Virus record (IMG/VR): IMGVR_UViG_3300035220_000380
Location: 1 to 27,431 of that record
Direction: 5' to 3' (one strand)
Source of the DNA: a virus
Length of the DNA stretch: 27,431 nucleotides
Shown piece after piece: positions 265 to 17,712 of the stretch. Each line of letters begins with the position of its first letter. Positions within the stretch are counted from its first letter, which is position 1. The notes beneath the pieces were generated by a model. It did not search any database. It was given only the letters and a program-made list of their open reading frames with translations, and was not told the origin of the DNA. The position numbers and the translations under genes were made by a program.

Positions 265-1725
265 TTAAGCTCCTTTGAACAACACGAAGTTATTAGCAGC
301 TTGAGTTACTAAACATCTTTCAGATAAGAAATGTACAGACATTGCATCTAAATCAGAAGTGTAAGCTCCTCCAACTGAACCAGTAATCCAGTTTTTAAAT
401 CTTCGATCTTCAGTTTCAGAAGCTCTATATCTTACGTGTAAGAAAGGACGTCTAATGTTAGATCCTAACATTTGATCGTATACTGTTGAAGTTCCAGCAG
501 GAACTAAAACACCATCAATCTCTTTGTCTAATCCTCTTGTAGAAGCATCGTTTAAGTATTTCCAGTCAGTCTTGTAGAAGTCATAAGAACCTCTTCTGAA
601 TCCTGAAAATCCAAAGTTTAATGCCATTTCTGATTCGTTATCAAATAAACCATAAGAAGCAGCTTGAGTAGAAGCATAACCTCCACCAGCCATAGCGCCG
701 ATCATATCATCAAAGTCAAGAGCCGTAGATCTTGATAAAAATAACATGTTTTCTTCAATAGCACCTTGCTTATCTAAGTTTTTAAGAATTTCATCAAAAT
801 CACCTAAAGCACCTGAACCAGGAGCAGCAGCACCAGAAAATCCAGAGTATATATTACCTCTTTTTTCAATAGCAGCAAACATACCTTCAGTACCTAGTAT
901 ATTGTCTCCAGATAAAGAAGAAGCATTACCATTAGCTAGTTTTGAATCAACACCTTCAACCATCATCATTTCAAGATAATCTTCAAAACGTAATCTAGTT
1001 TCAGACTCAGCTTTTAGATACCATAAGTATCCAGATGTTCCGTCTTCAGTAGCAACTTCAACCCACCCAATTTGAGCAGTATCAGAACCGTTGATTTCGT
1101 ACTTATCTTTGATAATTACAGGTCTATTAGCATACTGAGTAAAAGATGGCTCAATAGAACCGTCCATACCAGGTGTTCCTTTTTTAAATTCAGAACCGTA
1201 TACAAACATGTTAATACCTTTTGTATTTAATAAACCAGCAGGTAGTGTGTCAGCACCGTATACTTTAGCAGTAAATTTAGTGTTACTTGTAGTTAAACTA
1301 GTTACATAAACTTTAGCAGTTACTAAACCAGTAGCTTGATCAGATAAAAGAACAGTTTGACCTACTCTAATAGCTATTTCAGTTGTTTCTGTATCTGTTA
1401 AATCAGGCTCAATTGTATAAACAGCACTAGCTGGACCAGTAATATTAGCTTCTAGTCCTTTGTAGGCTACGTGTAATCTATTTTGTTCAGACCAAATTAC
1501 TTGATCAGAAGTCATAGGCATTTCAGCTCCTACCATTCTCAAGAAACCAGACAAAGTCCTGTTTCCGTATCTCTCCACTTCTTGCTCATAAAGCTCAGGA
1601 AGATATTGTTGTGCGAAAGTTCCACCACCACCTGACGAATTGAAATCTAAGAAGTTTCCAATTGTTGTCATTCTAGCTTGTGAAGGAACTATACTTGCGG
1701 GAAAACTCCCACCAGATAAACTCAT
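265..1725 (-). CDS. Major capsid protein (probable)
   Basis: A 486-aa protein that would form the icosahedral shell. The call rests on three things: its position directly after portal and scaffold-like genes, its length, which suits capsid proteins of large marine and crAss-like podoviruses, and a C-terminal half that reads like a capsid protein: RFEDYLEMMMVEGVDSK near residue 250, a long segment with LFLSRSTALDFDDMIGAM, and RPFLHVRYRASETEDRRFKN near the end. The N-terminus is Gly/Ser-rich (SSGGGG near residue 33). No signal peptide or membrane segment is seen. The start is supported by a 12-base gap from the upstream gene and an A-rich leader without Shine-Dalgarno sequence. An HK97-type fold is expected from the family but cannot be shown here. 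No separate prohead protease is visible in the window. Confidence 0.85.
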   Translation of the reverse strand: MSLSGGSFPASIVPSQARMTTIGNFLDFNSSGGGGTFAQQYLPELYEQEVERYGNRTLSGFLRMVGAEMPMTSDQVIWSEQNRLHVAYKGLEANITGPASAVYTIEPDLTDTETTEIAIRVGQTVLLSDQATGLVTAKVYVTSLTTSNTKFTAKVYGADTLPAGLLNTKGINMFVYGSEFKKGTPGMDGSIEPSFTQYANRPVIIKDKYEINGSDTAQIGWVEVATEDGTSGYLWYLKAESETRLRFEDYLEMMMVEGVDSKLANGNASSLSGDNILGTEGMFAAIEKRGNIYSGFSGAAAPGSGALGDFDEILKNLDKQGAIEENMLFLSRSTALDFDDMIGAMAGGGYASTQAASYGLFDNESEMALNFGFSGFRRGSYDFYKTDWKYLNDASTRGLDKEIDGVLVPAGTSTVYDQMLGSNIRRPFLHVRYRASETEDRRFKNWITGSVGGAYTSDLDAMSVHFLSERCLVTQAANNFVLFKGA

Positions 1726-2946: not shown

Positions 2947-5334
2947 TTACTCTAACAATGGGTCTACTTGATTTTTTTCAAAATTAGTTGGTAATAAATC
3001 ATTTTTTCGTTGATCTATCATTTGGCTTTGTTGTGTGGCTTGTATTCTTGTTCTTTCGTCTTTACGGTTTTCTATTTCAGCTTCTTTATTGCTTATAATA
3101 TCTAAATCCATTTGTTTTAGTTGCTGGTCATAACCAAACTGAATCTCCATTAACTGTCTTTTAATTTCAGCTTCTTGTTGTATTTTGTTTATACCAAACT
3201 CAGATTTACCTTGTTCTATTTGTAAAGTTGTTTCAGCTAAAGCTTGTTGTTTTTGCATTTCAGCTAAAGCTCCTCTTTCAGCTGCTTCTGCATTTGCATT
3301 AGCCTGTGCTTGAATATTTGCTTGTTGAGCTTTTTGATCAGCTTCTTGTTTTTGTTTTCTTTTTATTTTAAGAAGTTGATTAGCTAATTTAAGATTGTTA
3401 ATTTGTCTAATATCTATAGCGTCTTCTAGGTTTATTCCACCTTGTTTCATAGCAACTTGAATATTTTGCTCTAGTTGAGCTTTTTCTTCCTCGTCAGGTA
3501 CTAGCTCTAAATATATCCCAAAGTCAGCCATATTCAGCTTATGCATGTCTTCTAGTGTTCCAACATTATATGTGCTTAAACTAGAATTAAGAGCTGATTT
3601 AGTTAAAGGATATTCTAAAGCATCTGATATTCTTAAAGAAATATTTTCACATGTTTTAACTGTTAAATACAATAGTGATTGTAGTAGGTGCTTAGTTGCT
3701 ACGTTTGAACTAGCTGCAGCAAGTTTTTGTAAGCCTACTAGCGAATCTGAATTAGGCATAGTACCATCTCTAGCCTCGTTAAGCCCCGTAACATCTCTCA
3801 TCATTTGTAAATAATATTGATAAGTCTGTATTAAAGCTTGAGTTTTAGCACCACCTGAAGAAGTTTGAAGTTCTTGAATTGGTATTTTGCCTCTATTAAC
3901 GTCGCCATCTTGTGTTAAAGATCTACCTAATATACTACCAGTTTGGAAATACATATTAAGAGCTTCTGCAGGATTATAGTTTGTTCCGTTTCCTAAGTCA
4001 ACCTCTGCCAAACCATCTACATCTAAGAAAACACCATCAGGTACTATTCTTGATAATACTTGTTGTAGTTTTAAATGAGTTAGTTGTATCATGTCAGCAA
4101 AACCAGTCATTCTACTAACTAAAGATTCTATACGCCCTTTATACATTTTAGGAGCGCAAAGCGTATAATTCATATTAACCTTAACAACATTAGCTTCAGG
4201 CCTAACCATGTTTCTTGCAAGTTCCCATCTTAACATTTTATCATGTCCTAAGACTTTAGCGCCTTGATACAAAACCTCTATAGATCTATAAACTCTTTGA
4301 AAGTTATCATTTTCTGGAGGGTTAAACTCGTCATTTTTTTCAATAGCTTTTTCTAAACCAGTAGCTGTTTCTTTTATTTTAAAAACTTGGTTTTGATAAG
4401 TCTTATATTCAAAGTATAATACTGGAACATTGTTAGTATCGTTTCTACCGTTGAATTGATAAGCATAATTACTTCTGTTAGGATATTTTTCTATTTCTCT
4501 TAATTCTTCATCAGTTATATTAGGAAATTCCTTTTTTAATTCTCCTAAATTAATACTCTTTACTTCTCCTATATACCATAGATCTTGAAAATTAGGATCT
4601 TCTGTATAAGAATAAACTAAATCAGCTGGATCAACGTATTTTACTGTAACACCTTCTGATAGATTAAAATCTGTTTTAACAGCACTTATTCCTAAAACAA
4701 CTAAATCATTAGCCATTCTTCTTTTTACTAACTCATACTTATTAAAATCTAAAGTATTGTTAATTGCTTCTTCTTCTGCTATTTCAACCGATTGCTTATA
4801 ATCTAACTGCATATGTATATCTAACTCTTCACGATTCTGAGGTAATTCCTCAGGGTTTGAAGTAGAATACATATTTAATCCTGTAACTTGTTTTATTTGT
4901 TCAATAAGCTTTTTAGCTTGTATATCTCTTAACAAGTGCTCAGCATATTTAGTTCTAGCAGCTAAAGAAACAGGATCTTGAGCATAAGCTTTTATATCAT
5001 AAAGCTTAGTGTCTAATCCATTAACAACTATATCTACAAATTTAGGTATTATAGGAACAGGTTTCCAGTCTAAATTTAAATAAGATAAATCTCCATTTAT
5101 TGCTAGTTCGTCTTTGTATTTTTGAACAGACTGTTCTCCTCTTGCATATAGTCTTAAGTTTCTAAAGTTATTGTAGTTAGTATTAAACCTACCACTTACA
5201 CCAGTACGAGTACCAGCGAACCAATCACCTTCAATTGCTCGACCAACTTGTCTGCCGTAGTCTAAGCTGCTTTTGACTTCATCAGATACTACCTGATCAG
5301 GGAAAGAACTACCGTTTTGAGTACTTATTTGCAT
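2947..5334 (-). CDS. Portal protein
   Basis: A 795-aa protein that would form the dodecameric channel at the capsid vertex through which DNA enters. It starts one base after the TerL stop codon (TAAATG), so the two genes are tightly coupled. The conserved core contains LNEARDGTMPNSDSLVGLQK at about 518-537, a signature I associate with portals of crAss-like and related marine podoviruses, preceded by a long helical stretch with SRMTGFADMIQLTHLKLQQ. Residues about 655-760 form a Gln/Ala/Glu-rich coiled coil, as seen in C-terminal barrel or crown regions of long portals. The size fits the 700-850 aa type. The TerL-portal-scaffold-capsid order supports the call strongly. Confidence 0.9.
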   Translation of the reverse strand: MQISTQNGSSFPDQVVSDEVKSSLDYGRQVGRAIEGDWFAGTRTGVSGRFNTNYNNFRNLRLYARGEQSVQKYKDELAINGDLSYLNLDWKPVPIIPKFVDIVVNGLDTKLYDIKAYAQDPVSLAARTKYAEHLLRDIQAKKLIEQIKQVTGLNMYSTSNPEELPQNREELDIHMQLDYKQSVEIAEEEAINNTLDFNKYELVKRRMANDLVVLGISAVKTDFNLSEGVTVKYVDPADLVYSYTEDPNFQDLWYIGEVKSINLGELKKEFPNITDEELREIEKYPNRSNYAYQFNGRNDTNNVPVLYFEYKTYQNQVFKIKETATGLEKAIEKNDEFNPPENDNFQRVYRSIEVLYQGAKVLGHDKMLRWELARNMVRPEANVVKVNMNYTLCAPKMYKGRIESLVSRMTGFADMIQLTHLKLQQVLSRIVPDGVFLDVDGLAEVDLGNGTNYNPAEALNMYFQTGSILGRSLTQDGDVNRGKIPIQELQTSSGGAKTQALIQTYQYYLQMMRDVTGLNEARDGTMPNSDSLVGLQKLAAASSNVATKHLLQSLLYLTVKTCENISLRISDALEYPLTKSALNSSLSTYNVGTLEDMHKLNMADFGIYLELVPDEEEKAQLEQNIQVAMKQGGINLEDAIDIRQINNLKLANQLLKIKRKQKQEADQKAQQANIQAQANANAEAAERGALAEMQKQQALAETTLQIEQGKSEFGINKIQQEAEIKRQLMEIQFGYDQQLKQMDLDIISNKEAEIENRKDERTRIQATQQSQMIDQRKNDLLPTNFEKNQVDPLLE

Positions 5335-7560
5335 TTATTTTATTATTTTTGAAAAAACTCCGTCGTTATCATAACGTTTAATACCTAATTTAATGTGTTT
5401 AGTTAATCTTTCTGGAACAGGTTTATATTTATTTTTATTACAAGCCATAATAGCTAAGCCTGAACTTATAGTAGCATCATGCTTTGTTCTATTATTTATG
5501 TTAAATTTACCCCAGTCCTCTAAAGTTTTTTGGTGATACATATCGCCATAACCTTCACCTATTAAACCTACATATGTTTCTATATAAGATTCCACAGCCG
5601 CAGCGTGTGCTTGTTTAATGTCTTCACTTGAATTAGGTATTCCACCTATTTCTTTTTCTGTTGTAGAAAGCTTATTCCAAATTTTATCAGGACGATTCAT
5701 TGAAAAACCTCTATAACCTCTACGTTTAAAATAGTACAATAGTCTTGGTTTGTTATTTTCACAGAGTATTGGCATACTATAAAATACGCAAGCCATCAAC
5801 ACGTCTTCAAAAAATATTTCAGCAGTTTGAGGTCTAGCAATATATTCAAGAAAAAAATGATTAGGTGGTGCGTCTTCCATACTAAACTTGGTCAAGCCGT
5901 GCAATGCTCCATTAGAACCTTTACCATCTACTGTTCCACTTATATCGTAACTATCACAACCAAACGCGCCTATATGTTCATTACCAGGATATTTAGTTCC
6001 ATTTTTCATTATTACTTGATTTTGCAAGTTTACAGGTGGAACCCAAGATATCATAAATCTACCATCTTTGTTAGGATAAAATCTTACGCTAGTATCTTTT
6101 ACTCCACTAACCCACTGAAAACTACCTCTAGTAACTGAAGATATATTATTTATTTCAGCGTTGTAATCTATTTGTTGATATATTTTAGTTAAGTTAAACA
6201 AGCTGTCTTTAGCTTCATCTCTAAAAGCATGCTGTTCTGTTCTTGGAAATTGCCTGTAATATTCATTTAAACTATCAGGATCATCCTTTAATCCATCTAC
6301 TTCGTTCTGCCAGTGCTCAATAACTCCTGTTGAAATTTTTTGACCATCTGCTCCTTTAATGTTATTTCCTTCTCTAATGAAAACAGGTGATCCGTAAGTA
6401 TCCATGAATCCTTCGTAGTTCCATTCCATAGGGATGAAAAGAGAATAGAGTCCAGAAGAAGTTTGTCCGTTTTTATTTCTTTTTGTAACGTCTGAAGAGT
6501 AATAGAGTTTTTTGAAGTTGTTTCCACCTTTATCTAATGCGTTTGAAGTTGAGCCCATCATACACTTGCCTACGATTCTTGATCCTAGCCTTAGTGTTGT
6601 TTTTGTAACTCGCCAGTTGTTTAATATGTTGTCCGGTCTTTCCCATTTTCCGCTTTCGTCGTGTGCTAATAATTTTAATTTCTCACCATCGTAAGAGTTG
6701 TCGCCGGTATTTTTCCAGTCAATAGTTGTATCAAGCCCGTCAAGTTCTTTTAGTTGCTCATTACTCTCAAGCTTTCTTCTAGTAAGTTTTGAAGCCGGAA
6801 CCCTATACGCCAGTTCTGTCTTAGGACGATCCATACCGTCTTGGATTGGCTTGAAGAAAAACGGATAGTTAATGGATATTGGCACAACTTTATCTGTGAA
6901 CATTTTTTTAGCATCTGCTCCAGATTTAGATAATATACCGAATCTGGCGTCACTTGATATCGTCGCTTTATTAACAAGCTCTGCCGAGGACATAAATGAA
7001 AATCCAGACCTTCTGTTTTTAAGGTAGCACATCCCGTAACATCTGTTATCTGCTTTACATGCTTCCCAAAATATATAGAATAATCTATTTGCTTCTCTAT
7101 AATCTGGTGCCCCAACGTCGATCTTTGACCACTGTAAGTACATGTAATGAGTGCCAGTGATATATGTAGAAATACCTTTACTATAAAACCAATAACCCTC
7201 TTCTCTTCTTGTAAATTCTTTGTCAATATAATCATACCACCTTTCTTTAAAATCAGTGTCAAAATTTTCCCAGTCAAACCTGCTCTTGATTCTATTTAAT
7301 TCTTTTGGATATTCTGCTTTTTCCCAATATTGTTCAGCTTTTTTTTCGCTTCGTTTATGCGATTCATATTCTGCTGGTAAAGCAATCCTGAGATTCTGTA
7401 TTTCAATGATTTTTCCAATTTTCCCAGTTTTACTTATTACTATAAAGTCATACTCTTCATTATAACCATACTCCCATTTTTTATATCTATTTTGCTTAGA
7501 TAATATTTTAGGGTTTACAACATCTTTAATCTCTTTCCAAAGAGTTTGTTCATAACTCAT
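5335..7560 (-). CDS. Terminase large subunit (ATPase and nuclease)
   Basis: The 741-aa packaging motor. The N-terminal ATPase has a deviant Walker A at 181-188 (KNRRSGFS), where the lysine is at the front of the motif as in lambda gpA (KSARVGYS); Walker B at about 297-302 (LLAHDE); and a coupling motif GSTSN at 336-340. The C-terminal RNase H-like nuclease has candidate metal ligands D536 (FGCDSYD), E601 (ILCENNK) and D695 (HDATISSGLAIMA). It would translocate DNA through the portal and cut the concatemer. The gene overlaps the upstream 91-aa gene by four bases (ATGA) and abuts the portal gene. Length and sequence style match TerL of crAss-like and other marine Bacteroidota phages; the exact clade is uncertain. 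Confidence 0.95.
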   Translation of the reverse strand: MSYEQTLWKEIKDVVNPKILSKQNRYKKWEYGYNEEYDFIVISKTGKIGKIIEIQNLRIALPAEYESHKRSEKKAEQYWEKAEYPKELNRIKSRFDWENFDTDFKERWYDYIDKEFTRREEGYWFYSKGISTYITGTHYMYLQWSKIDVGAPDYREANRLFYIFWEACKADNRCYGMCYLKNRRSGFSFMSSAELVNKATISSDARFGILSKSGADAKKMFTDKVVPISINYPFFFKPIQDGMDRPKTELAYRVPASKLTRRKLESNEQLKELDGLDTTIDWKNTGDNSYDGEKLKLLAHDESGKWERPDNILNNWRVTKTTLRLGSRIVGKCMMGSTSNALDKGGNNFKKLYYSSDVTKRNKNGQTSSGLYSLFIPMEWNYEGFMDTYGSPVFIREGNNIKGADGQKISTGVIEHWQNEVDGLKDDPDSLNEYYRQFPRTEQHAFRDEAKDSLFNLTKIYQQIDYNAEINNISSVTRGSFQWVSGVKDTSVRFYPNKDGRFMISWVPPVNLQNQVIMKNGTKYPGNEHIGAFGCDSYDISGTVDGKGSNGALHGLTKFSMEDAPPNHFFLEYIARPQTAEIFFEDVLMACVFYSMPILCENNKPRLLYYFKRRGYRGFSMNRPDKIWNKLSTTEKEIGGIPNSSEDIKQAHAAAVESYIETYVGLIGEGYGDMYHQKTLEDWGKFNINNRTKHDATISSGLAIMACNKNKYKPVPERLTKHIKLGIKRYDNDGVFSKIIK

Positions 7561-7832
7561 TTGCTTCTACCTTCTGCAAAACCTTTAAAAGCTTTATTTT
7601 CTTTTACTTCTTTAGGTTTTTCATTTAAAATATCTTCTTCATCTTGTATGCGAGTTAAAATTTCAAATGCATCAAATATAGCTAATTTTTTTGTTGCAGC
7701 AGCATTTTTAAGTCTATCAGCTGAGATATCATCTCCTGAGTCAACGATCTTTTCTTGTGCTACTTTAATTAGTTCTTCAACTGCTTTTTGCCCAGCTTGG
7801 ATTATTTTCAATTTCGTTTCCTTCGTATTCAT
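7557..7832 (-). CDS. Small helical protein before TerL; candidate small terminase
   Basis: A 91-aa charged, mostly helical protein. The centre reads SADRLKNAAATKKLAIFDAF (about residues 37-56), followed by an acidic and then a basic tail (KGFAEGRSK). Its stop overlaps the TerL start (ATGA), implying translational coupling, and its start lies 56 bases inside the end of the upstream 197-aa gene. There is only one methionine, so no shorter start is available. A small helical protein directly before TerL is often the small terminase, which recognises viral DNA and forms a ring, but I see no clear helix-turn-helix. The functional call is therefore from context only. Confidence 0.5.
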   Translation of the reverse strand: MNTKETKLKIIQAGQKAVEELIKVAQEKIVDSGDDISADRLKNAAATKKLAIFDAFEILTRIQDEEDILNEKPKEVKENKAFKGFAEGRSK

Positions 7833-8370
7833 GGGTTAAAGCTATATCATTTGATTTCATACAATAAAGTCGTTCACCATCTATAATAAACTCAAATTCA
7901 GAGTTTGGGGTAAACGTAATAAGTGTTCCAGGTGTTATTCCTAGCGCTTCTAAGGTGTTGTTAGTATATTTTATTATACCAACATTAGGTTGTTCTTTTC
8001 TGTTCTCTAAAAAAGAACTATTTAAAATTGGTTTTACAAAGCAATAATTAAGATGAGAAGTCTTGTTGTACATATATATTTGATCTAAAGCACAAAAATA
8101 TAAATCATTTTTAAAGTAAGTACCACTATTTTTTTCTTCACCTTTCATATCATAATACCTGCGAAGAATATTATGATGTATATAAACTTCATCACCAACT
8201 TTTATTTCTGTAGCATAAGCAGCTGGAGTCGAAACTACAACTGCTTTTTTACTTACAAAAATATGGTTTTCTATACTAGAGTTAATAATTAATTCTTTAT
8301 TACCAACTTTTTTAATATTATCATACCTTTTATCTAAAGGTTTTATAATAAAGTGATATAGACTTTTCAC
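7777..8370 (-). CDS. Tandem GroES-like protein (two co-chaperonin-type domains)
   Basis: A 197-aa protein that reads as two GroES-like beta-barrels. Domain 1 (about 5-102) has an opening strand FIIKPLDKR, a possible loop, KVGDEVYIHHN at 57-67 and a closing strand DLYFCALDQIYMY at 89-101, like the KVGD and final strand of GroES. Domain 2 (about 108-182) repeats the plan: YCFVKPI, VGIIKYTNNTLEALGITPGT, then FIIDGERLYCMKSNDIALTH at 161-180, close in style to the GroES C-terminus. A canonical GGIVL-type mobile loop is not obvious, so GroEL binding is uncertain. The window also carries a normal GroES and GroEL. It lies between small proteins and the terminase and overlaps both neighbours (1 base and 56 bases). 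Alternative: a GroES-fold structural protein unrelated to folding. Confidence 0.6.
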   Translation of the reverse strand: MKSLYHFIIKPLDKRYDNIKKVGNKELIINSSIENHIFVSKKAVVVSTPAAYATEIKVGDEVYIHHNILRRYYDMKGEEKNSGTYFKNDLYFCALDQIYMYNKTSHLNYCFVKPILNSSFLENRKEQPNVGIIKYTNNTLEALGITPGTLITFTPNSEFEFIIDGERLYCMKSNDIALTHEYEGNEIENNPSWAKSS

Positions 8371-8594
8371 TAATATTTCAAGTCATATTCTAAAGACACC
8401 GCCATGTTTCTATTAAATTTTTTCCAAGGAAGAACTTCATTATCTTTAGTTATAAAGATATTATAAGACTGATCTTCTTTTTTAAATAAAATATCATTAA
8501 TTATGTGACCGCCATATACTTCTTGGCCAACAGCATAATGCATAGCTTCGTTTTTATAATCAGATCCTATACTAATCTTTCTTATCTTCGACAT
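8370..8594 (-). CDS. Small conserved-looking hypothetical protein
   Basis: A 74-aa soluble protein beginning MSKIRKISIGSDYKNEAMHY, with VGQEVYGGHIINDI near residue 22 and a beta-rich remainder (NIFITKDNEVLPWKKFNRN). No signal peptide, membrane segment or known motif. Its last base is shared with the start of the tandem GroES-like gene, and it overlaps the end of the previous gene by 23 bases, so all three are likely translated from one message. I do not recognise a function. Its place just upstream of packaging genes suggests a small virion or packaging accessory protein. Confidence 0.6.
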   Translation of the reverse strand: MSKIRKISIGSDYKNEAMHYAVGQEVYGGHIINDILFKKEDQSYNIFITKDNEVLPWKKFNRNMAVSLEYDLKY

Positions 8595-15907: not shown

Positions 15908-16168
15908 TTATAATATTATTACAACATCAAACTCTTTTATTACTTTATATTCTTCTTTATTTATTTCAATATTAAATCCAGCTGCTTTGTCATAATAGAC
16001 TTCATCGCCTTTTTTTAATACCGATACATCAGAGCCAGGTTCTACAACCTTAGCTCTTCTATATCTAACATCTTCTCTTTGCTTCTCAGCTAAGATTAAA
16101 CCACCTTTTGTAGTTACATCAGTTTCCTTGACTGGATCTATAACTATAAATTTACCTACTGCTTTCAT
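15908..16168 (-). CDS. groES: GroES co-chaperonin
   Basis: An 86-aa co-chaperonin that would cap GroEL and help fold clients in the cytoplasm. The mobile loop is TTKGGLILAEK (19-29), with GGLIL corresponding to GGIVL of bacterial GroES. LKKGDEVYYD at 51-60 matches the conserved KVGD strand, and the last strand (YKVIKEFDVVIIL) closes the barrel. Slightly shorter than the 94-97 aa of bacteria, as in other phage proteins of this type. Its start overlaps the groEL stop (ATGA). The order groEL then groES is opposite to the usual bacterial order. Near-full-length motifs suggest function with the phage GroEL or that of the host. Confidence 0.93.
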   Translation of the reverse strand: MKAVGKFIVIDPVKETDVTTKGGLILAEKQREDVRYRRAKVVEPGSDVSVLKKGDEVYYDKAAGFNIEINKEEYKVIKEFDVVIIL

Positions 16169-17712
16169 GCTCTAATATTATTAATAACACAATCAGTAGA
16201 TAATATTGTTGTAGCTACTGAAGCTGCGTTTGTTAGTGCACTTTTAGTAACAAGCAAAGGATCTATAATTCCGGCTTTTACCATATCAACCGTATTTCCT
16301 GTAACCACATCTAATCCCATGCCTTTTACTTCTGGTGTTTTATAATCTTCAACGCCAGCGTTTTTAAGTATCAATTTATAAGGCTCTTTAATAGCACAGT
16401 AAAGTACCTCTTCGCCTATTGACATTGGTTTTAATTGCTGTGCGGCGTTTAATAAAGCTATACCGCCTCCTGGCACTATACCTTCTTTGATCGCAGCTTT
16501 TGTAGCACAAATAGCATCTTCTACTCTATCTCTTTTTTCTTTTAATTCCATTTCAGAGTTAGCACCCACTTTAACTGTAGCAACTTTAGCTTTTAATTTA
16601 GCTAATCGTCTTTCTAGTCTTATTATTACATTTGGGTTTTTAGTTTCTTTAATTTGATTTTCTAATAGTAAAACTATATCTTTAACAACAGAATTTACAG
16701 ATAAATCAACTTGCATTATAGTATCCTCATGGTTTGTAACAGCTTTTAAACAAGTTCCTAAGTATTCTGGATCTATAATATCCATATCATCACCTAAGTC
16801 TTCGTTAATAAGTGTAGCACCAGTAACCGCGCATAAATCATTTAGAGTATCCTTTTTACTGATACCATAAACCGGTGCATCTATAATGTTAACCTTTATG
16901 TTTCCTTTTACTTTGTTCATTGAAAGTGCTGAAACTACTTGAGGGTCAACATCTGCTATTATAAGCAAACTTTTACCTGTCTTTATCACATGTTCAAGAA
17001 CTGACTGAATCTTCCGCACGTTGGGTATTACTGATTCTACGATTAGAACCAACGGATTTTCAAGTTCAGCCGTGCCCTTTTCCTTGTTGGTGATAAAGTG
17101 GTTGTTTTTCAAGGGCTGATCATATTGCACGCCTTCTACTAACTCAACTACTGTTTCAGGTTGTTCATTTGTTTCCATCATAACAATGCCTGTTTCATCT
17201 ACTAGTCTAAACGCTTCTCCTATAACCTTCCCAAGATTTTTGTCATTATTGGCTGATATTGTAGCCACTTGGTCGATTTTTTTACCTTTTACTTTCTTTG
17301 CTGTTTTTTCTAAATAAGCTAATACTTTTTTAACACCTGAATCAATACCTTTTTTTAATTCTCTTGAAGTATCTAACTCACTGTGCTTGTAAGCTTCATC
17401 TAAAATAGCTTTTGCTAACACCGTAGCAGTTGTAGTGCCGTCGCCTGCATCTTTAACGGTTCTTTGTGCTGCTTGCTTTATTAACGTAGCTCCAATATTT
17501 TCTAAAGAATCTTGTAATGTAACTGAATTAGCTACTGTTACCCCATCTTTTGTTATTTGTGGCATGCCATTGGCATCTTCTAATATAACACATTTACCAC
17601 TTGCTCCTAAAGTAGAACCTACTGCATTAGTAAGTTTCTCTACCCCAGTTAATATCTGACTTCTGGCACCATCACCAAAAGCCAGATTTTTAACTAACTT
17701 TATTTCTTGCAT
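16165..17712 (-). CDS. groEL: GroEL chaperonin
   Basis: A 515-aa group I chaperonin, somewhat shorter than the about 545 aa of bacteria. ATP-binding and hydrolysis residues are present: ITKDGVTV (D56, D52 of E. coli), AGDGTTTATVLA at 89-100 (D91, D87), RVEDAICATKAA with D399 (D398) and PGGGIALLNA at 414-423, and GIIDPLLV with D484. The apical segment has VEGVQYDQP (193-200) and hydrophobic residues that contact clients. The C-terminal Gly-Gly-Met tail is absent: the protein ends TDCVINNIRA. It would fold phage virion proteins or replace host GroEL. The gene follows a 97-aa gene after 32 bases with an A-rich leader, and is coupled to groES. Confidence 0.98.
   Translation of the reverse strand: MQEIKLVKNLAFGDGARSQILTGVEKLTNAVGSTLGASGKCVILEDANGMPQITKDGVTVANSVTLQDSLENIGATLIKQAAQRTVKDAGDGTTTATVLAKAILDEAYKHSELDTSRELKKGIDSGVKKVLAYLEKTAKKVKGKKIDQVATISANNDKNLGKVIGEAFRLVDETGIVMMETNEQPETVVELVEGVQYDQPLKNNHFITNKEKGTAELENPLVLIVESVIPNVRKIQSVLEHVIKTGKSLLIIADVDPQVVSALSMNKVKGNIKVNIIDAPVYGISKKDTLNDLCAVTGATLINEDLGDDMDIIDPEYLGTCLKAVTNHEDTIMQVDLSVNSVVKDIVLLLENQIKETKNPNVIIRLERRLAKLKAKVATVKVGANSEMELKEKRDRVEDAICATKAAIKEGIVPGGGIALLNAAQQLKPMSIGEEVLYCAIKEPYKLILKNAGVEDYKTPEVKGMGLDVVTGNTVDMVKAGIIDPLLVTKSALTNAASVATTILSTDCVINNIRA

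Follow-up and report, generated by a model that had tools for sequence, protein, structure and literature searches.

The DNA analysed here is a stretch of 27,431 nucleotides from a marine virus (IMG/VR record IMGVR_UViG_3300035220_000380, positions 1 to 27,431), referred to below as the window. It encodes a protein of 197 amino acids (aa; 22.8 kDa), which predicted models confirm as two GroES-fold domains, D1 and D2, in a single chain. The initial annotation of the window had proposed a double-length GroES-like protein, and the predicted fold, the profile comparisons and the match to the protein family PHROG 13932 agree with this proposal. The gene of this tandem protein is already known and is widespread among phages. 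We propose that the tandem protein and an ordinary single-domain GroES of the same phage might form a mixed lid on the phage GroEL (or on the host GroEL where the phage has none of its own), serving the folding of head proteins; we regard this reading as evenly poised. Its three components, i.e. the ring stoichiometry, the binding to GroEL and the client of the tandem protein, are ones that we infer. The features of the window are collected in Table 1.

Two predicted GroES-fold domains in one chain

The tandem gene runs from 8370 to 7777 and is encoded by the minus strand, with a GTG start codon at 8370 and a stop codon at 7777-7779. Since Met1 is invariant in an alignment of 62 sequences (A1; 61 of 183 closed open reading frames (ORFs) left after an 82% identity filter, plus the window protein), the annotated start is probably right. 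The motifs from which a two-domain protein had been deduced are present (FIIKP at residues 7-11, YCFVKP at 109-114, IKVGD at 56-60 and ITPGT at 145-149), and the C-terminal end of D2, ERLYCMKSNDIAL, resembles that of E. coli GroES, EVLIMSESDILAI.

Structure prediction and comparison with GroES, which had been suggested as a check, found both halves GroES-like in the predicted models. The AlphaFold2 model based on the 62 sequences (pLDDT 84.7, pTM 0.76) has as its top whole-chain VIA-align match 7ekq_R (Z 10.0, 151 residues, 3.5 A, model residues 1-181), a chain named 'Cpn20 co-chaperonin subunit' in the PDB, i.e. the tandem co-chaperonin of Chlamydomonas plastids; Foldseek aligned the whole chain to the same entry with an E-value of 1.5e-5 and a TM-score of 0.53. 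In the predicted model D2 matches GroES chains across residues ~101-182 (Z 6.8-9.0). When D1 was modelled alone (pLDDT 86.7), the top 16 VIA-align rows were GroES-type entries with Z 5.8-8.0, in a range where, by the tool's own warning, values under 8 may reflect only a common arrangement. Dehydrogenases, whose GroES-like domain has the same barrel, make up most of the rows below (5.3 and lower) and are fold-level matches only. Foldseek searches with D1 gave GroES-type chains in the first 33 rows, the best being a GroES at E 2.1e-3, and nothing at E 0.001 or better.

The two halves were also compared separately, by profile, with the single GroES proteins of the same phages (alignment A4, 19 of the 21 sequences found, two identical copies being omitted, plus that of the window; the D1 alignment, A2, omits L164, which has an N-terminal extension). 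The hhalign scores were 30.0 for D1 (E 4.9e-5, probability 67.7) and 31.9 for D2 (E 2.1e-5, probability 76.9), above all of the 200 column-shuffled copies of each (maxima of 17.7 and 18.4, respectively) and above the reversed profiles (9.1 and 11.8). The further claim that the two segments are similar to each other was not borne out: direct similarity of D1 and D2 was not detectable by hhalign (E 0.023, probability 2.1), and at the level of sequence profiles the internal repeat appears to be visible through GroES only.

Family models gave a graded picture. PHROG 13932, annotated 'co-chaperonin GroES', matches residues 1-176 of the window protein to positions 1-195 of its 200 (E 2.8e-22). The Pfam model Cpn10 (PF00166) scores 13.7 bits on the window protein, under its curated cut-off of 21.1, which is exceeded by D2 of relatives from phi19:3 (33.0 bits), locus L187 (27.1) and phi38:1 (25.2); 31 of the 62 family members match it at E up to 1, the best at 2.2e-6. 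The Elemovirus protein matches the single GroES family PHROG 3188 (whole-protein E 3e-4) with its best stretch, residues 14-64, in D1, and this stretch by itself fails the 0.01 threshold. In sequence-only searches of the PDB, neither the window protein nor the D1 profile retrieved a GroES chain, the D2 profile gave a weak match (E 0.0082), and the whole-chain profile found two GroES chains at E 0.035, with unrelated chains from 0.29 on and no Cpn20.

These results bear on the suspicion that the relationship of the N-terminal half to GroES is a chance likeness that has been over-read. The silence of the Cpn10 model on the four D1 halves scanned, the absence of a GroES chain from the D1 profile search of the PDB and the modest Foldseek values would fit such an explanation. 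We nevertheless find it scarcely credible, given the distance of the D1 profile score from the 200 shuffles, the lead of GroES-type entries over dehydrogenases with the D1-only model, and the match of the Elemovirus D1 region to PHROG 3188.

Mobile loops of the two domains

The mobile loop of GroES is reported to bind GroEL, and a GroES lid is reported to require four or more working loops out of its seven (PMC4242682). Loops were counted in 191 tandem proteins (near-identical copies were kept in; one ORF truncated at the edge of its contig was omitted). In D1, the number of residues between P11 and A43 is 31-32 in 168 proteins and 28-30 in the other 23. Positions 27-29 are all hydrophobic in 171/191 and at least two of them are in 190/191, and hhalign places the tripeptide of the window protein, LII, on LIL of the single GroES. 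D1 thus appears, from its sequence, to keep a GroES-type mobile loop with a hydrophobic tripeptide for putative GroEL binding.

The D2 loop is bimodal: between P114 and G131 lie 16-18 residues in 183 proteins and 25-27 in the remaining eight. With 16 residues, the window protein lacks a GroES-type mobile loop in D2. The long-loop members (duplicates included) are those of phi19:3, phi46:3, phi13:2, L187, L188 and phi38:1/Calle (L084, L185, L186), so that full-length D2 loops are confined to phages without GroEL, phi38:1-type phages and one fragment. The loops of L187 (IGSIIVPNSGETHKG) and phi19:3 (PSLIYIPEDNKEK) are like the canonical GroES loop, that of phi38:1 (NGLRVIEEEYKG) less so.

Another conserved stretch of D1 consists of two histidines at positions 65-66 (188/191 proteins) and Asn67 (191/191), possibly a metal or partner site. 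The phi19:3 type carries Asp-Val-Asn where other tandem proteins have His-His-Asn.

Single GroES and GroEL genes of the same phages

The initial annotation had placed a normal groES and groEL 8 kb upstream of the tandem gene. Both genes are there (15908-17712), at a distance of ~7.5 kb in the direction of transcription. The single GroES of the window (9.7 kDa) belongs to a set in which the loop is kept (Gly23 is invariant in 20/20 proteins, some of them near-identical); five phage single GroES proteins aligned with E. coli GroES lack nine residues in the roof region. Judged by what we take to be the groove and ATPase-site residues of E. coli GroEL, the window GroEL retains D52, D87 and D398, and in the apical groove keeps F204, L237 and N265 and carries the changes Y199L, Y203H, L234Q, L259V, V263S and V264M. 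By these residues, the ATPase of this GroEL is probably active and its groove probably retuned. The alignment at the inter-ring contacts is too gappy to separate single- from double-ring forms, and a tree of 13 GroELs (4/10 inner branches well supported, long branches) does not separate one from several origins of the phage GroELs.

Co-occurrence was scored in 20 IMG/VR records picked for size (41.8 kb or more) and seven annotated phages; with phi38:1 in both sets, these are 26 distinct records with the tandem gene, some near-identical. The single GroES is encoded in 25/26, the miss being G012, at 41.8 kb a fragment by size. GroEL is encoded in 21/26 and was not detected in G012, G020, phi19:3, phi46:3 and phi13:2, of which the three named phages have complete genomes and G020 is a record of 72.8 kb whose completeness is not established. 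In four records (G020, phi19:3, phi46:3 and phi13:2), therefore, the single and the tandem GroES occur without a detected GroEL. Loci with two co-chaperonin genes and no detected GroEL are L206/L207 (record G020) and L210 (NC_021789). A further 20 records, mostly fragments in which a miss is not informative, were scanned for GroEL and nine were positive; among long-loop types, phi18:3 (71.4 kb) had none and Calle (73.0 kb, L186; scanned for GroEL only) had one.

When loop type is set against GroEL in the 26 records, GroEL is encoded in 20 of the 21 with a short D2 loop (the miss is the 41.8-kb fragment G012) and in one of the five with a long loop (phi38:1), the other four having none detected. 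Because each of the two halves of a tree of 18 terminases mixes long- and short-loop types, two or more losses of the D2 loop are probable, provided that the root is right (the tree has a midpoint root and long branches, and the program warned that some joins may be false). Independent events are few, and a link between loss of the D2 loop and possession of a phage GroEL is no more than suggested.

The records in which GroEL was not detected also bring to mind a role in host takeover, the tandem protein joining or displacing host GroES so as to block host GroEL, or change its tuning, in infected cells. The phi19:3 type and G020 keep tandem proteins with full D2 loops, and host GroEL is then the sole evident target. 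Such a regulator or decoy is very unlikely in view of the own GroEL of 21/26 records, and a place beside the terminase and portal genes would be odd for a host-takeover factor.

Head-gene neighbourhood

The link of the tandem gene to head genes, pointed out initially, extends through the family: the terminase large subunit gene (terL) lies downstream on the same strand in 185/187 loci, after a gap of 0 to 1,853 bases (median 229), and the two remaining loci run into a contig end within 700 bases. The order after the tandem gene of the window is the 91-aa ORF, terL, the portal gene, a gene for a 391-aa protein and that for the capsid-position protein. The terL of the window is related to that of Tenacibaculum phage records.

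MW202828 has a conserved counterpart of the 91-aa protein, and phi19:3 a more distant one; Pfam and PHROG searches gave no convincing family match for the 91-aa protein, and its position suggests a small terminase subunit. On the other side, a gene for 71-80 aa with a start near IRKIS/FRKIT is conserved in the five lineages compared (phi19:3 not among them). Its 74-aa representative in the window has a sub-threshold Pfam match to the model of an archaeal Argonaute N-terminal domain (E 1.7e-4, 22.5 vs 27 bits).

Table 1. Features of the window, with positions counted from its first letter
Feature	Coordinates	Strand	Evidence
Tandem co-chaperonin, two GroES-fold domains (predicted), 197 aa	7777..8370	-	ORF; PHROG 13932, E 2.8e-22; predicted fold
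D1 (residues 1-104), GroES-fold domain with mobile-loop-like stretch	8059..8370	-	Profile and predicted fold; GroES chains, Z 5.8-8.0
Hydrophobic tripeptide L27-I28-I29 of D1 (with N30), at the position of GroES I25-V26-L27	8281..8292	-	hhalign; conservation
H65-H66-N67 of D1, nearly invariant	8170..8178	-	Conservation in 191 proteins
D2 (residues 105-182), GroES-fold domain, mobile loop shortened	7825..8058	-	GroES chains, Z 6.8-9.0; profile; loop count
Ordinary single-domain GroES, 86 aa, mobile loop TTKGGLILAE, no roof hairpin; proposed ring partner	15908..16168	-	PF00166, E 5.3e-11
GroEL of the phage (515 aa), proposed chaperonin; GGM tail absent, ATPase aspartates kept	16165..17712	-	PF00118, E 1.8e-53
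74-aa ORF directly upstream of the tandem gene	8370..8594	-	ORF; its stop overlaps the tandem gene start (TAGTG)
91-aa conserved ORF between the tandem gene and terL, overlapping the end of the tandem gene	7557..7832	-	ORF; conservation
Terminase large subunit	5335..7560	-	PHROG 6681, E 3.9e-159
Portal protein	2947..5334	-	PHROG 6547, E 1.9e-140
Capsid-position protein	265..1725	-	Weak match to crAss-like phage capsid model, E 0.056; PHROG 13704, virion structural protein

The genes for the portal and further virion proteins carry a structural mark in the records of phi38:1 and phi19:3, given for similarity to phi18:1 or phi8:3; the tandem gene has no such mark. These marks reportedly go back to the virion proteomics of Holmfeldt and colleagues in 2013. 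The record labels weakly disfavour a GroES-fold virion protein, one of the roles first envisaged.

The neighbourhood invites a related explanation, in which the tandem protein is a packaging or head-assembly factor of GroES fold that does not bind GroEL and contacts terminase, portal or procapsid, with H65-H66-N67 as a new site. This accords with its gene adjoining terL, with the short D2 loop of 183/191 proteins and with the two histidines of 188/191, and a tandem GroES ring on a non-chaperonin partner has been described, the plastid Cpn11/20/23 ring sitting on ClpP (PMC8889267). We consider it unlikely, since a D1 loop of 28-32 residues is present in 191/191 proteins, its tripeptide is at least two-thirds hydrophobic in 190/191, a single GroES is encoded alongside in 25/26 records, and the missing structural mark in the phi38:1 and phi19:3 records speaks against it as well.

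Distribution of the tandem gene

A search of 50,697 annotated phage records gave 77 matches to the window protein (E up to 10), and 85 records match its relative from L187 (E up to 1). They belong to Flavobacterium Elemovirus, the Cellulophaga phages phi38:1, phi40:1 and Calle, the Cellulophaga phages phi13:2, phi18:3, phi19:3 and phi46:3, Maribacter phage Panino and a single uncultured phage. The gene is labelled chaperonin cpn10 or co-chaperonin GroES in many of these records and 'hypothetical protein' in a few, and 'chaperonin cpn10' is reported as a core gene of Pervagoviridae (PMC8776804). Relatives are encoded in at least 599 IMG/VR stretches; a scan using the MW202828 protein found 540. 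No relatives emerged from a scan with the Panino protein. A genome scan added 23 loci (L218-L240), all titled metagenome-assembled genome (MAG), from a species-representative collection and spread over mixed taxa, with bacterial bins and also an archaeal one. Taken as a set, they are presumably phage contigs in bins and not cellular tandem GroES genes. In those portions of the open-access literature that the search covered, a tandem architecture was not found described for any phage.

A proposed mixed lid on the phage chaperonin

According to the model that we propose, the tandem protein would be made together with the head genes, and three copies of it would combine with one single GroES into a ring of seven GroES domains with four loops. 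This mixed ring would act as the lid of the phage's own GroEL, and of host GroEL in relatives without one, enclosing a chamber suitable for head proteins, for instance the capsid protein. Three tandem chains with one loop each and one single GroES with one loop would give seven domains and four loops, matching the reported minimum of four. A mixed lid is preferred to the stand-alone double-length cap because the single GroES is encoded in 25/26 records and the window type has a single loop-bearing domain; a shared ring on host GroEL fits because both co-chaperonins are kept where GroEL was not found. The head-gene position, together with T4 gp31 as a precedent for capsid folding, suggests a head-protein client, and capsid or portal would both be plausible.

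The main rival is a lid made of the tandem protein itself, i.e. a homotetramer of eight GroES domains, one of them outside the ring, as formed by plastid Cpn20 in vitro, with the single GroES as a separate, ordinary lid for other clients. The two genes do lie in different gene blocks, and the four-loop arithmetic fits such a homotetramer equally well. We think this arrangement rather unlikely, as single and tandem GroES go together in 25/26 records, four of them without GroEL, and as seven-domain hetero-oligomers are favoured as the native plastid form in a review (PMC5780408).

Besides this arithmetic, several observations weigh against the mixed lid. The gene of the tandem protein, whose lid role is putative, is 7.5 kb away from groES/groEL and, in Elemovirus and phi38:1, on the strand opposite groEL. 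The altered groove makes binding to the window GroEL unreadable from E. coli rules, and phi38:1 and Calle break the loop pattern by having GroEL and yet a long D2 loop. The evidence for D1 has its own weak points: its best Z of 8.0 is at the level where VIA-align warns of a mere common arrangement, none of the four D1 halves scanned matches Pfam Cpn10, and AlphaFold2 may be swayed by known GroES and Cpn20 structures. The GroELs of phages EL, OBP and AR9 are reported to work without a co-chaperonin (PMC9598537). Finally, the tandem ring of 7ekq is described as sitting on ClpP and not on a chaperonin (PMC8889267), and a non-chaperonin partner for the phage protein would be possible in principle.

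With more doubt than confidence, we offer a fuller version of the mixed lid. A lid of three tandem proteins and one GroES could have arisen independently of plastids and, with the D2 loop mostly lost where the phage has its own GroEL (a loss in two lineages or more, given a correct terL root), would have exactly four loops. It would be asymmetric and probably roofless, and its loop-free positions could serve to open the chamber, or to adjust it, for a client from the head.

Comparison with known systems

Phage-encoded co-chaperonins of GroES fold are known from T4 (gp31) and RB49 (CocO, reported as a GroES ortholog; PMC9598537), and T4 gp31 is reported as a precedent for capsid folding (PMC3012670). 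The gp31 structure (1g31_A) is among the fold matches of both predicted domains (Z 7.0 for D1 and 6.4 for D2). However, gp31 is a single-domain heptamer that acts on host GroEL, whereas the system described here combines a tandem protein with a single GroES and includes its own GroEL in 21/26 records. A phage-encoded GroEL is shared with EL, OBP and AR9, which are reported to act on their own, with no co-chaperonin (PMC9598537); the window GroEL, in contrast, has two co-chaperonin genes alongside.

The flavobacterial podophages whose proteins belong to PHROG 13932 (Callevirus phi38:1, Elemovirus, Baltivirus phi19:3 and Maribacter phage Panino) carry the same family of tandem proteins in the same neighbourhood, before terL and portal. 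The phi19:3-, G020- and phi38:1-type proteins keep a full-length D2 loop, unlike the window type. The system is a candidate for a dedicated head-protein folding machine in this widespread group of Bacteroidota phages.

The closest architectural parallel is found in chloroplasts and apicoplasts, whose Cpn20/Cpn21/Cpn23 likewise consist of two GroES domains head to tail in ~200 aa and coexist with a single-domain Cpn10; the best whole-chain fold match, 7ekq_R, is of this kind. Rings in which tandem Cpn20 and single Cpn10 together supply seven GroES domains are reported (PMC5780408), and the Cpn11/20/23 of 7ekq are described as a heterotetramer (PMC8889267), whose chains (two Cpn20, one Cpn23 and one Cpn11) by count provide seven GroES domains. 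No specific sequence kinship with plastid Cpn20 was found (the D2 profile reached 7ekq_R at E 1.3), the phage gene adjoins terL, and the D2 mobile loop has been lost in the window lineage. A usable loop in both domains marks the Cpn20 type; with its shortened D2 loop, the window protein may work like Cpn20 but is not classed as one. The tandem protein is a phage analogue of plastid Cpn20, with one of two loops lost in the window lineage, and the likeness looks like convergence. Tandem co-chaperonins have been described from plastids and apicoplasts, where it has been discussed how a protein with an even number of domains can fit a machine of seven-fold symmetry. A phage system of one tandem protein, one single GroES and one GroEL, with natural variants that have or lack the second loop and have or lack GroEL, makes the number and order of loops in such a lid testable.
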